A stretch of 57,295 nt of DNA from Kyrpidia sp. (GTDB taxonomy: Bacteria > Bacillota > Bacilli > Kyrpidiales > Kyrpidiaceae): assembly GCA_029960885.1 (NCBI GenBank), contig JASBVV010000032.1:1-57295 (forward strand). Direction: 5' to 3'. Position 1 is the first letter of the stretch; every line of letters begins with the position of its first letter. The position numbers were made by a program, and so were the translations under genes. Below the pieces are notes generated by a model, which saw only the letters and a list, made by a program, of their open reading frames with translations, was not told the origin of the DNA and ran no database searches. Shown here piece by piece: positions 17,253 to 40,020 of this stretch.

Positions 17253-19094
17253 TCACACGATCTGCACCCGATAATCCCGCAGCCACTGATCCACCTGGAT
17301 CAGGTAGGCGAACAGTTGGGGCAGGCGCATCAACTGGCCGAACCAGGGAATGTCGAACTCCTCTCCGGCTTTGAGCCATCTGGTGACGGTTTCACGGTCG
17401 ATCAATGGCCGGAGGGGAGAGGAGGGGTCTGCCAGCACCTCTTCCAGCGTCGTCCGGCATGCCCGGGTGAAATCCGGATGGTGGGTTTTCGGGAAAGGAC
17501 TCTTTTTTCGCCACAGCGCATCTTCGGGAAGCAGTCCTTTCACGGCCAAGCGCAAAAGCCCCTTTTCGCGGCCGCCGGCCATTTTCATCGACCAAGGAAC
17601 ATTCCACATGTACTCCACCAAGCGATGATCGCAGAAAGGCACCCGGACCTCCAGACCCGCCGCCATGCTCATGCGGTCTTTGCGATCCAGGAGAACGGGC
17701 ATCCAGTGGAACAGATTCAGGTAAAACATCTCGCGCATGCGGGCATTCTCAGGGTCTTCCCCGGGAAGGCGCGGAACGGCCTCCAGCGCCTCCAGGTACC
17801 GCCGACGGACATACTCTTCCGGCCGCAGGTGCGCCGCCAAGTCCGGGTGCAGAACGGAGACCCTTTCCCGCATTTTCAACGACCAGGGGAAAATATCCGC
17901 CTCAAGCGCTTCTTTCCGGTGAAACCAGGGATATCCTCCAAACACTTCGTCCGCGCATTCCCCGGACAGCGCCACCGTCGCCTCTTTTTTGATTTCCCGG
18001 CAAAAGAGCAAAAGCGACGAATCGATGTCGGTCATGCCCGGCAAATCCCTGGCACGAACGGCCTCTCGCAGGGATTGGGCCACCGCCGTGGGGGTCAGGG
18101 TCACCACCCGCTGTGTCACGCCCAAAAATTCCGCCACCCGTTTGGCCCACGGTCCGTCGGCTCCGGGTTGGAATGCATTGGGTTGAAAGTGCACGTCATT
18201 GCCGATGTAATCGATGGAAAACGCGCGCAGGGGGGGCCTGCCGTCCTTGCGGAAGGTCATGGCGGCAAGCGCAGTGATGGCGCTGGAATCCAGCCCTCCG
18301 GACAACAGCGTGCAGACGGGCACGTCGGACATCAACTGCCTATCCACGGTATCTTGAAGCAGGTTCCGAACCGCGGCGACGGTCGTCCGCAGATCATGCT
18401 CGTGGGGACGGCTCTCCAACTTCCAGTATTGGCGGCGGTGGATGGCTTGACGGTCAAACCGCAACGTCCATCCGGGTTTGACCTCGTACACGTTTCGGAA
18501 TACTCCGTGACCCGGTGTGCGTCCGGGGCCGAGTGCAAACACTTCGGCCAATCCCTCTCTGTCGATCTCCGCTTGAATCCGGGGATGGGCCAAAAGGCCT
18601 TTCAGTTCCGAGGCAAAGACCAGGGCGTCGGGCAGGGGGGAGTAAAAGAGCGGCTTCACCCCGAGACGGTCACGGGCCAAGAAGAGTTCCTCGCGCTGTT
18701 CGTCCCAGATTCCGAAGGCGTAAATTCCGTTGAAACGCTCGACACAGGCCGGTCCCCACTGTGCATAGGCGACCAGGACCACCTCGGTGTCGCAGCGGGT
18801 GGCAAAGGAATGGCCAAGAACTTTTAATTCCCTTCTCAGTTCACTCATGTTGTACAATTCGCCGTTGTACACGATGACCAGGGTTCGTTCACCCCGGTGC
18901 CACACCATGGGTTGGGCCCCGCCCTCCGGGTCGATGATCGAGAGCCGCCGATGTGCCAGCCCCGCCCGAGGGGACGCCCATAGGCCCTCCGCGTCGGGAC
19001 CTCGCCAATACTGGACACCGGCCATGGCTTTGAGCACCGAACGCTGTTCGGTGACATCCAGGTTCCAATCAATCCAACCGGCAATCCCGCACAT
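17253..19094 (-). CDS. asnB: Asparagine synthase (glutamine-hydrolysing)
   Basis: A 613-residue glutamine-dependent asparagine synthetase. The start is fixed by 'MCGIAGWIDW': Cys2 becomes the N-terminal nucleophile of the glutaminase domain (about 1-200), and GAAGGGGGG lies about ten bases upstream. The synthetase domain has the PP-loop 'LLSGGLDSSAITALAAM' near 258 and later 'SGECADEVFGGYPWF'. The protein converts Asp, Gln and ATP to Asn. Bacilli often carry several paralogues (AsnB, AsnH, AsnO), and I cannot say which role applies. It is monocistronic here. Confidence 0.93.
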   Translation of the reverse strand: MCGIAGWIDWNLDVTEQRSVLKAMAGVQYWRGPDAEGLWASPRAGLAHRRLSIIDPEGGAQPMVWHRGERTLVIVYNGELYNMSELRRELKVLGHSFATRCDTEVVLVAYAQWGPACVERFNGIYAFGIWDEQREELFLARDRLGVKPLFYSPLPDALVFASELKGLLAHPRIQAEIDREGLAEVFALGPGRTPGHGVFRNVYEVKPGWTLRFDRQAIHRRQYWKLESRPHEHDLRTTVAAVRNLLQDTVDRQLMSDVPVCTLLSGGLDSSAITALAAMTFRKDGRPPLRAFSIDYIGNDVHFQPNAFQPGADGPWAKRVAEFLGVTQRVVTLTPTAVAQSLREAVRARDLPGMTDIDSSLLLFCREIKKEATVALSGECADEVFGGYPWFHRKEALEADIFPWSLKMRERVSVLHPDLAAHLRPEEYVRRRYLEALEAVPRLPGEDPENARMREMFYLNLFHWMPVLLDRKDRMSMAAGLEVRVPFCDHRLVEYMWNVPWSMKMAGGREKGLLRLAVKGLLPEDALWRKKSPFPKTHHPDFTRACRTTLEEVLADPSSPLRPLIDRETVTRWLKAGEEFDIPWFGQLMRLPQLFAYLIQVDQWLRDYRVQIV

Positions 19095-19265
19095 GTCGTC
19101 GTTACCCCCTTCGGGCTTCCCGCATACCCCGGGCCATCGCCCAGTCTGTGGTAAGGTATGCACCGTTCCGAGAAAGGGTGACGTGTCGACGTCCCGGCGC
19201 GGCGAGGCCGGTATTGGGAAATCCAAGGAAGAAGGGAGCTGTCTTGTTTCGCCCTCATGCCGCGA

Positions 19266-20262: not shown

Positions 20263-20553
20263 TTGGACGGGGAGGAGCGCCGGAGGCAATTGGTCCGGTG
20301 GATGCGGGAATACGGGGAAGCCGTATTGCACCTGGCCTATTTTTACGTTCGGGACCGGGATGTGGCGGAGGACGTGTTTCAGGACGTGTTTCTGCGGGTC
20401 TACGCCGAGATGGATCGCCTTCGCGATGAGAGGGCAGTCCGGACTTGCCGCGTTCGCCTGCACCGAGCCCGACGGCGGTTGAAGGTCTTGTTGGCGAAGG
20501 AGGGCTCGCTCCATGAGCGACGATCTGACGCGGAAGCTGGAACGGATGGCTGA
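20263..20553 (+). pseudogene. ECF sigma factor with large internal deletion
   Basis: The product keeps region 2 ('GEAVLHLAYFYVRDRDVAED' followed by VFQDVFLRVYAEMDRL). It then jumps in frame to the very end of region 4 ('RVRLHRARRRLKVLL'). About 80-90 residues, covering the region 2-4 linker and the helix-turn-helix, are missing at the junction 'RDERAVRTC', so only 96 residues remain. The start is the TTG at 20263 with AGGGGGG upstream; an ATG at 20212 is in frame but close to the predicted transcription start. The stop overlaps the downstream membrane protein gene by 41 bases, preserving the original sigma/anti-sigma arrangement. It cannot bind -35 DNA by region 4 and is presumably non-functional or a decoy. 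Confidence 0.8.
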
Positions 20554-23631: not shown

Positions 23632-24253
23632 ATGGAGCTCACCGTGGATTCGGCAGAGTTGACCCATCGGATCGCCGGGATGATTCAGGAAGTGGCGAGC
23701 GGCTCCCGAACCCAGGTGCGGCAATCGGAAGACAGTGCGGCGGCGGTTCGATCTCTCGACGAACTCCCCCCACTTGACCCTCAGGCACGAGGGGTGAAGC
23801 CGCTCAGCCCTCCACCTGGGTCTGAACGGGCACCTGATGAATTCGAGAGTCGATTCACCGCAGGTTGTCAACCTCAGCGTTTTTCAAACTGGTAGTCATC
23901 GACCCTCACCGTTTTTTCTGTGGATTGCCGTCCACGAGGTGATCTCCGGCATTGCCGCACAAACGAACCTGCTGGCTCTGAACCGCTATCGAGGCGGCCC
24001 GGGCGGTCGGGGCTTCGTGGTGGTGGCGGACGAGGTGCGCAAACTGGCGGAACAGTCCAAGGGATCGGCGGATCAGATCGCGGAACTGGTGGAGACCATT
24101 CAAACCGACACCGGCCGTTCGGTGGAGGCCATGGGCATGGTCACCCGTGAGGTGCGATCGGGCATTGAAGCGGTCCAGGAGGCCGGGCGGGCGTTTGACC
24201 ACAGTCGGACGGCCCAAGAGCTTCAGGAACTGATCCACCGGTTCAAGGTGTAA
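23632..24253 (+). pseudogene. Methyl-accepting chemotaxis protein fragment, interrupted by an inverted piece of a neighbouring gene
   Basis: The 5' part encodes an MCP signalling-helix segment ('RIAGMIQEVASGSRTQVRQS', then 'EDSAAAVRSL'). From about 23749 to 23934 the sequence is instead the reverse complement of the CNNM gene end at 25681-25869. MCP sequence resumes with 'EVISGIAAQTNLLALN' and 'GRGFVVVADEVRKLAEQS' to the stop at 24253. At 'LLALN' a two-base loss gives 'RYRGGPG' instead of the usual AAIEAARAG, a further frame scar. The sensory and transmembrane N-terminus is missing. It is clearly non-functional. Confidence 0.85.
23749..23934 (+). repeat. Inverted repeat copy A (inside the MCP remnant)
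   Basis: These about 186 bases match the reverse complement of 25681-25869 with only a dozen or so mismatches and small gaps. A long shared run covers 'AAGCCGCTCAGCCCTCCACC' and its continuation. It replaces roughly 60 codons of the MCP. The other copy is the native 3' end of the CNNM gene plus about 55 bases downstream. Confidence 0.85.
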
Positions 24254-24492: not shown

Positions 24493-25815
24493 TTGGACAC
24501 ACCTGGTAGTTTGTTTATCAAGATTCTGGCTGTGTTCGGTTTGGTATTGGTGAACGCCTTTTTTGTGGCGGCGGAATTTGCATTGGTGAAGGTCCGCTCG
24601 ACTCGATTGCAGCAGCTGGCGGAGGAGGGGCAACTGCGGGCTCGTTTCGCCCAACGGGTGGTCTCGAGTTTGGATGCGTACTTGTCGGCGACGCAACTGG
24701 GCATCACTTTGGCGTCCCTGGGGCTGGGCTGGCTCGGTGAGCCGTCTGTTGCCGCTGTGTTAAAGCCGTTGTTTAGCTTGACCGGATTGCCCGATGCCAT
24801 TGTCCACACCGTTTCGTTTATTGTCGCTTTTTCCCTGATCACCCTGCTGCACATCGTGTTGGGAGAGTTGGCGCCGAAATCGTTCGCCATTCGGATGGCG
24901 GAATCGACCGCTCTCTGGACAGCCCTTCCCCTCGCGTATTTCTACAAGCTCATGTATCCCGCCATATGGCTGCTCAATTCCTTTGCCAACCTGTTGCTGC
25001 GATGGATCGGGATTGAACCGGTGGTATCCGGTCATCAGGCGGCGTATTCCGAAGAAGAGTTGTTGTTGCTGCTGTCCGAAAGCCACCGCAGCGGATTGAT
25101 AGACAGTACGGAAAAAGCCCTCATGGATAACATCTTTCACTTCTCGGATCGCGTCGCTCGGGAGATCATGGTCCCTCGGACGGACATGGTCTGTCTCTAT
25201 CTGGATCGTTCCGTGGAGGAGAATTTTGAGATCGCCCGGGCCAACCGGCACACCCGGTATCCGGTTGCCGTGGAGGACAAGGATCACATCGTCGGATTCA
25301 TACACGTGTCCGACCTGTACGTTCAAGGACTGCAGGCCGGACAGCGGGATCTCCATCCGATTATCCGCGAGGTCCTGCGGGTTCCCGAGTCGATGGAGAT
25401 CAGCCGGGTGTTGCGCCTGATGCAGAAACAACGCGGCCAGATTGCGGTGGTGGTGGACGAATACGGAGGTACGGCGGGGCTGATCACCCTTGAGGACATC
25501 TTGGAAGAAATCGTCGGGGAGATCCAAGACGAGTTCGATGAGGAAAGGCCTCCGATTGAGACCGTGGGTGAGGTCACTTATGTGGACGGCCGCGTCCTGG
25601 TTGAAGACATCAACGATCTGTTCGGCTTGGAGATCGACGATTCCGAAGTGGATTCCATCGGCGGATGGGTGGCCGCTCAATTGGACGGCAATCCACAGGT
25701 GGGAAAAACGGTGAGGGTCGATGACTACCAGTTTGAAATCGTCGAGGTTGACAACCTGCGGGTGAATCGACTTCGAATTCATCAGGTGCCCGTTCAGACC
25801 CAGGTGGAGGGCTGA
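24493..25815 (+). CDS. CNNM/CorC-family transport protein (hemolysin family, DUF21-CBS)
   Basis: A 440-residue membrane protein. DUF21/CNNM domain with three to four hydrophobic segments (about 1-190, including '[18 protein letters not shown]' and '[16 protein letters not shown]'). A CBS pair follows (about 215-335, '[14 protein letters not shown]' and '[20 protein letters not shown]'), then a CorC_HlyC domain (about 350-435). Family members such as Bacillus MpfA affect Mg2+ efflux; the 'hemolysin' name is historical. It starts at a TTG (24493) after GGGGATG. Its last 45 codons form half of the inverted repeat shared with the MCP remnant. Confidence 0.93.
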
Positions 25816-25869
25816 GCGGCTTCACCCTCATGCCTGAGGGTCAAGTGGGGGAGTTCGTCGAGAGATCGA
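25681..25869 (-). repeat. Inverted repeat copy B (3' end of CNNM gene)
   Basis: This is the native counterpart of copy A at 23749-23934, in opposite orientation and about 1.75 kb away. It covers the end of the CorC_HlyC domain and about 55 bases beyond the stop. It includes a hairpin ACCCTCA/TGAGGGT at 25824-25841 that may act as the CNNM terminator. The coding frame is intact here, so this is the source copy. Confidence 0.85.
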
Positions 25870-31979: not shown

Positions 31980-33081
<1,102 letters not shown>

Positions 33082-38332: not shown

Positions 38333-38727
38333 ATGTTTCACTATACCGTGACGACCGACAAATCGGTGGATGAGTCCGTCAAGGCTCTGGAAGAGGCGTT
38401 AAAAGAACGCCGTTTAGAAGCACGCGCTGGTGAGGATGGCCTGTACCCGGTACAGATCAGACACCTTTGCCACTGGCATCCGAAGGGACAGGATAATCGA
38501 TCTTGTAGTTTTTGATGAGTCAGGCTTTCTGCTGGTCATCCTGTTTTCTGCCATGTAAAATCGTCGTTTATCGGGACGGGGATCAGACGAAGATCGGTTT
38601 GCCGAGGCCGACGATGCTGCTGGGCCAGGCATCGGAAGACCCCGGGTTGCGAGAGATTGCCGGGCGCGTGGAGGAACAATTGTCTGCCGCGGTCAACGTG
38701 GCCGCGGGACAGTCGCGGCGGGGGTGA
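38333..38727 (+). pseudogene. DUF302 family gene split by an inverted thioredoxin-family fragment
   Basis: The 5' end gives a DUF302 N-terminus ('FHYTVTTDKSVDESVKALEE' then 'ALKERR'). The 3' end gives the DUF302 C-terminus in another frame ('LPCKIVVYRDGDQTKIGLPR', then 'EIAGRVEEQL'). Between about 38416 and 38551 the sequence aligns with the reverse complement of 39798-39926, the middle of the ResA/TlpA gene. On the minus strand it reads 'SDLYRVQAILTSACF' against ResA 'ADLYRVQAIPTSVF'. About 50 DUF302 codons are replaced. The gene has a good GGAGGGGG site and would yield only a truncated peptide. Confidence 0.82.
38416..38551 (-). repeat. Inverted, diverged copy of a ResA/TlpA gene segment
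   Basis: Matches the reverse complement of 39798-39926 at roughly 70 percent by eye, with shared blocks such as CTGTACCCG-TACAGATC, TCGATCTT-TAGTT and GGTCATCCT. Divergence is much higher than in the MCP case, so the source may be a different TlpA-family paralogue. Confidence 0.7.
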
Positions 38728-39453: not shown

Positions 39454-40020
39454 GTGGCCGGCAAGCGCACCAGCGGCATCGGATTCACCCTTTTCGTCGT
39501 CGTGGTGGTCCTGATCGCCGTGGCGGTGGTGATGAACACGCGGCAGATGAACAGCTTCGGAGAAGGGAGTGCGGGGGGCGGCACCGCACTTCCCATCAAG
39601 GGGTATCTGGCTCCGGATTTTACCCTGAAGAGCTTCGAAGGGCAGAGCGTGACCTTGTCCCTTGAGCGGGGCAAACCGGTGTTTCTGAATTTCTGGGCAT
39701 CCTGGTGCCCCCCTTGCCAGGCGGAGACGCCGGATTTGGTGGAGATGCACAAGAAATACGGGGATAAGATCGCCTTTTACGGCATTAATCTCACCCACGA
39801 GGATGACCGACAAAAGGCTCTGGATTTCATTCGGAACTATAAGATCGACTACCCGGTGCTTTCGGACGTGGAGGGGAAGGTGGCCGATCTGTATCGGGTA
39901 CAGGCGATTCCCACCAGTGTGTTCATCGGCTCCGACGGCAAAATCGCGGAGTTGGTCCAAGGCATGCTGACCAAGCAGGACATGGACAGGCTGTTTCAGC
40001 AACTTGAATCGGCCAAGTGA
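39454..40020 (+). CDS. resA: Thiol-disulfide oxidoreductase, ResA/TlpA family
   Basis: A 188-residue membrane-anchored thioredoxin-fold protein. An N-terminal helix (about 10-27) is followed by the AhpC/TSA-Redoxin domain with active site Cys-Pro-Pro-Cys in 'FLNFWASWCPPCQAETPDL' (near residues 79-82) and the cis-Pro in 'VQAIPTSVFIG'. ResA reduces apocytochrome c thiols outside the membrane, fed by CcdA, whose gene follows. It starts with GTG (39454) after AGGGGGGAG. Its middle part (39798-39926) is related to the inverted insert in the DUF302 gene. Confidence 0.92.
   Translation: MAGKRTSGIGFTLFVVVVVLIAVAVVMNTRQMNSFGEGSAGGGTALPIKGYLAPDFTLKSFEGQSVTLSLERGKPVFLNFWASWCPPCQAETPDLVEMHKKYGDKIAFYGINLTHEDDRQKALDFIRNYKIDYPVLSDVEGKVADLYRVQAIPTSVFIGSDGKIAELVQGMLTKQDMDRLFQQLESAK

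Follow-up and report, generated by a model that had tools for sequence, protein, structure and literature searches.

Errors of gap filling in hybrid assemblies are among the described phenomena closest to the locus reported here, with which they share noisy sequence in a sharply bounded block, in our case in a draft genome of 102 contigs. The putative fill here is, however, reversed and drawn from a neighbouring place, an arrangement of which we know no previous description. In short-patch double illegitimate recombination (SPDIR) a short host segment is likewise swapped for a foreign or ectopic one, although the patches known from SPDIR are smaller than those considered here, which in addition carry indel noise and recur with a reversed, local source. 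Short template-switch mutations (e.g. PMC7954356) are similar in that a nearby reverse-complement copy replaces a stretch of sequence; they differ in that the template at our locus is an allele other than the window's own, and in the many indels that the copy contains.

The window analysed here is a 57,295-base stretch of a Kyrpidia sp. draft genome (G000), which is 86% complete. Comparisons were made with the finished genome G001, which we take to be Kyrpidia tusciae, with G002 from the same genus and with G003 from the same family. The features discussed are collected in Table 1.

Table 1. Positions of the interrupted DUF302 gene, the resA gene and the patches (window coordinates unless a contig is named)
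Feature	Position	Strand	Remarks
DUF302 gene overall	38333-38727		Interrupted at 38416-38548 by DNA aligning in reverse with resA
DUF302 N-terminal part	38333-38415	+	Undecayed and indel-free; colinear with G001-G003; 8 of 53 conserved sites carry private changes
Patch, very likely foreign	38416-38548	-	Reverse-complemented, noisy version of a resA segment of K. tusciae-like type, replacing DUF302 bases
DUF302 C-terminal part	38549-38727	+	Undecayed; PF03625 positions 41-63, E = 3.2e-4; indel-free, with changes at 12 of 98 conserved sites
resA/TlpA-family gene	39454-40020	+	Intact; AhpC-TSA E = 1.5e-26; 81% protein identity to G001
Second patch	23748-23934	-	Within MCP-like gene; aligns in reverse with 25682-25869 at 92.7% (6 indel events)
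Source-equivalent of second patch	25682-25869	+	End of CorC/CNNM-type gene (24493-25815) and DNA behind it
Third patch	G000 contig 15 (L050), 19003-19229	reversed	Sits where the spoIVA N-terminus belongs

A replaced segment in the DUF302 gene

The DUF302 gene starts at 38333 (MFHYTVTTDK...) and remains colinear with its orthologues in G001-G003 up to 38415, homology being picked up again at about 38541-38554 (CKIVVYRDGDQTKIGLP...). The intervening segment is intact in all three relatives. There it measures 143-148 bases, against 133-138 here, in agreement with the proposal of the first-pass annotation that a host segment has been replaced and not merely interrupted; the interval encodes no DUF302 residues. 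PF03625 is matched over positions 2-63 in the G001-G003 orthologues. In the interrupted gene only positions 41-63 of 63 are matched, at 21 bits and thus below the 23-bit cut-off, and the domain is not complete. The draft genome yielded no second DUF302 gene.

The inserted sequence (38417-38545) aligns in reverse with the window's own resA at 39800-39927, with around 72% identity over 129 columns, and its minus-strand reading SDLYRVQAILTSACF, aligned with ResA by the annotation, is correct. A DNA search of the draft genome with the patch returned a single other match, to the same resA gene (E = 2.7e-11, 77% over 83-84 bases). The correspondence is closer still with the resA genes of G001 (86-88% identity depending on the alignment, with E = 8e-38 at 88%) and G002 (85-87%, again depending on the alignment). 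At 24 diagnostic sites where G001 and G002 agree with each other and differ from the window's resA, the patch carries the G001/G002 base 21 times and the window's own base three times. Neither the window's resA nor any other TlpA gene of the draft was therefore retained as donor, and the earlier suggestion of a different TlpA donor holds in the form of a K. tusciae-like resA allele. Since only some 1% of 127-base windows of the contig reach 88% identity to G001, the patch is, judging from these alignments, very likely foreign to the lineage of the window. A scan of genome contigs turned up no Kyrpidia relatives.

The copy is also a poor one. Among 93 sites common to the resA genes of the window, G001 and G002, the patch differs at 10; it holds frame-breaking indels, and the codon for the conserved cis-proline is lost (IPTSVF becoming ILTSACF). 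A working donor gene would be expected to look different. At the right junction the resA strand and the DUF302 gene of the relatives share an 8-base match, CTGCTGGT, while the left junction has no clear short match; the window's own original sequence at the junctions is lost, and the right-hand match is read from the relatives.

These features bear on recombination, in which a single strand from a K. tusciae-like relative, taken up by transformation, would have paired through short matches within a replication gap and taken the place of part of DUF302. The process is described as SPDIR (Harms et al. 2016, cited in PMC7192050), and would explain both the replacement in place of simple insertion and the foreign allele; the genome encodes ComEC, and nothing speaks more strongly for a real event than the 8-base match. 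Recombination, however, copies existing strands, and leaves unexplained the indel-rich noise beside clean flanks, the position next to the window's own resA and the three length-matched cases described below. The patch is not a faithful copy of its donor, as judged against G001 and G002 in place of the exact donor. A search of the draft for DprA (PF02481) was negative, although at this completeness its absence may be a gap. Overall, we regard recombination as unlikely.

Two further patches of the same style

Two similar patches were found in the draft genome, one in the window and one on another contig. The source of the first, in the MCP-like gene, lies 1.75 kb downstream, and its 187 bases replace about 210 bases of the gene in G001 and other relatives. 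The MCP-like gene itself (23632-24250) is without its N-terminal 334 residues and shows two small deletions to the right of the patch, one of 2 bases and one of about 10; it may be decaying in earnest. The other patch consists of the N-terminus of spoIVA reversed almost in place, with 88% identity to G001 and G002 and 12 indel events relative to G002. Here 227 bases stand for 233 lost. One end lacks around 50 bases, and the other carries a duplication of 48, where the patch overlaps into the forward gene.

All three patches have a local, reversed source, with centre offsets of approximately 0.05, 1.4 and 1.9 kb, and in each the length of the patch is 89-97% of the length lost. A self-search of 523 kb of the draft for local reversed copies returned these three, an inverted pair on L156 (722 bases, 68.7%) taken as diverged paralogues and a weak 31-base match on L147 taken as chance; the same search in 580 kb of the finished G001 genome returned none. 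No further reversed ectopic patch was present in the roughly 219 kb of the draft that aligned with 1.8 Mb of G001. A stretch of low identity near L045 4001-4176 was taken as poorly conserved DNA ahead of a gene. A mobile element is unlikely, as searches of the draft with both window patches returned just each patch and its source.

The noise was assessed quantitatively by counting indel events, which number 2.3-5.1 per 100 bases in the three patches compared to 0.37-0.47 in ordinary alignments of the draft with G001. Of 21 such indels, 12 are of homopolymer type. Frame-shifting indels are rare in the 174 kb of coding DNA compared, which rules out poor sequence throughout the genome. Elsewhere in the window, the loss of 2 bases near 32492 shifts the reading frame of a pyruvate dehydrogenase E1-alpha-type gene (E1_dh, 31992-33081), which may be an assembly error that was left uncorrected. 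At 20436-20458 colinearity breaks for 23 bases where G001 has about 290, and the orthologue of a 185-residue ORF is truncated as a result.

Such noise might be thought a product of age, and the annotation had suggested an older event. The flanks do not bear this out: private changes affect 15% of the 53 conserved sites in the N-terminal part of DUF302 and 12% of the 98 in the C-terminal part, against 10-13.5% in intact neighbouring genes. Since these flanks are undecayed, age is not the explanation for the divergence of the patch. An old insertion followed by neutral decay would be compatible with the differences at shared resA sites, with the accompanying indels and with the further deletions in the MCP gene, but the DUF302 flanks would have been equally free to decay and show neither indels nor an excess of changes, and spoIVA adjoining the third patch is intact; this course of events is thus extremely unlikely.

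A template switch at the replication fork, in which synthesis would have jumped to the nearby opposite strand, copied it in reverse and returned, would account for reversed, local copies. Yet the allele copied at DUF302 is not that of this chromosome, as the diagnostic sites indicate, and the noise lies far above that of any polymerase known to us. Such changes are known to arise by template switching (PMC7954356), but we consider it very unlikely here.

Probable mis-oriented gap filling and its consequences

Three length-matched patches, alike in style and with indels of the kind that sequencing introduces, point instead to gaps filled in the wrong orientation, and 38416-38548 is most probably an assembly artefact of this kind, the product of a wrongly oriented, unpolished long read and not a feature of the organism. 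The patches themselves, with their geometry and noise, and the lack of decay in the flanks are observed; from them we infer a pipeline step and an origin for the read. A gap in the draft contig would have been filled with raw, unpolished long-read sequence, drawn from a read of the opposite strand whose coordinates had not been converted. The inserted stretch would then be the reverse complement of the read's mirror position, standing in place of the missing DUF302 bases, and a fill of this type should be reversed and of local origin, with a length close to that of the gap and the noise level of one read. If the read at DUF302 came from a K. tusciae-like organism co-occurring in the sample, the patch would be closer to the K. 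tusciae-like resA than to the window's own, as is seen.

The patches have the corresponding properties. Each is a reverse complement of sequence within read length of the gap, each insert is about as long as the segment lost, and the indel-rich noise is confined to the block, save that the MCP patch has its two small deletions just outside. The model leaves its plainest mark at spoIVA, where loss and duplication balance, as expected if a window of the same length had been mirrored. The spoIVA protein is also 95% conserved within the genus and would be broken if the patch were real, which counts for an artefact.

A suitable setting is illustrated by a study of a coal-fire vent (PMC10215811), in which three Kyrpidiaceae MAGs, including K. 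tusciae, were recovered from one sample. R9.4 nanopore sequencing there gave 8.44 million reads (4.88 Gbp, mean around 0.6 kb), which were mapped to the MAGs, with npScarf used for scaffolding and gap filling; the study states that Illumina consensus was used to fill gaps. It shows that such a sample setting exists, and is cited as an example of the setting, not as the source of the window.

Some points sit less comfortably with a gap fill. The mirror-coordinate step is a model that we adjusted in hindsight to the three cases, and would predict correctly oriented noisy fills as well, of which none was clearly found in the draft, unless polishing removed them. A K. tusciae-like read would have had to bridge flanks that are just some 75% alike, and the right-junction match could also be compatible with recombination. 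A laboratory chimera, arising by amplification or library ligation and retained by the assembler, is a further candidate: strand-displacement amplification is known to yield reversed local chimeras, and a single faulty molecule from a mixed sample would fit the noise and the foreign allele. Such an origin, however, requires two junctions back in register, three times over, with loss about equal to gain, which the fill step predicts and a chimera does not; we therefore hold a chimera to be barely credible.

With mis-oriented gap filling as the preferred reading, the first-pass interpretation stands in part. The replacement, the reversed resA sequence and the different allele are upheld, while the older event is not and, most likely, neither is a real genomic event of any kind.

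There is a slim chance that a real, error-prone process operates in this lineage, swapping short gene segments for noisy reverse copies of nearby sequence, sometimes from the same locus of another species; the patches would then represent an unusual type of mutation. If they are artefacts, the breaks in the DUF302 and spoIVA genes of the draft are false, those in the MCP gene are false in part, and patches like these can be mistaken for foreign insertions or inversions. Their signature, reversed, local, length-matched and rich in indels, offers a possible screen for other hybrid-assembled genomes.
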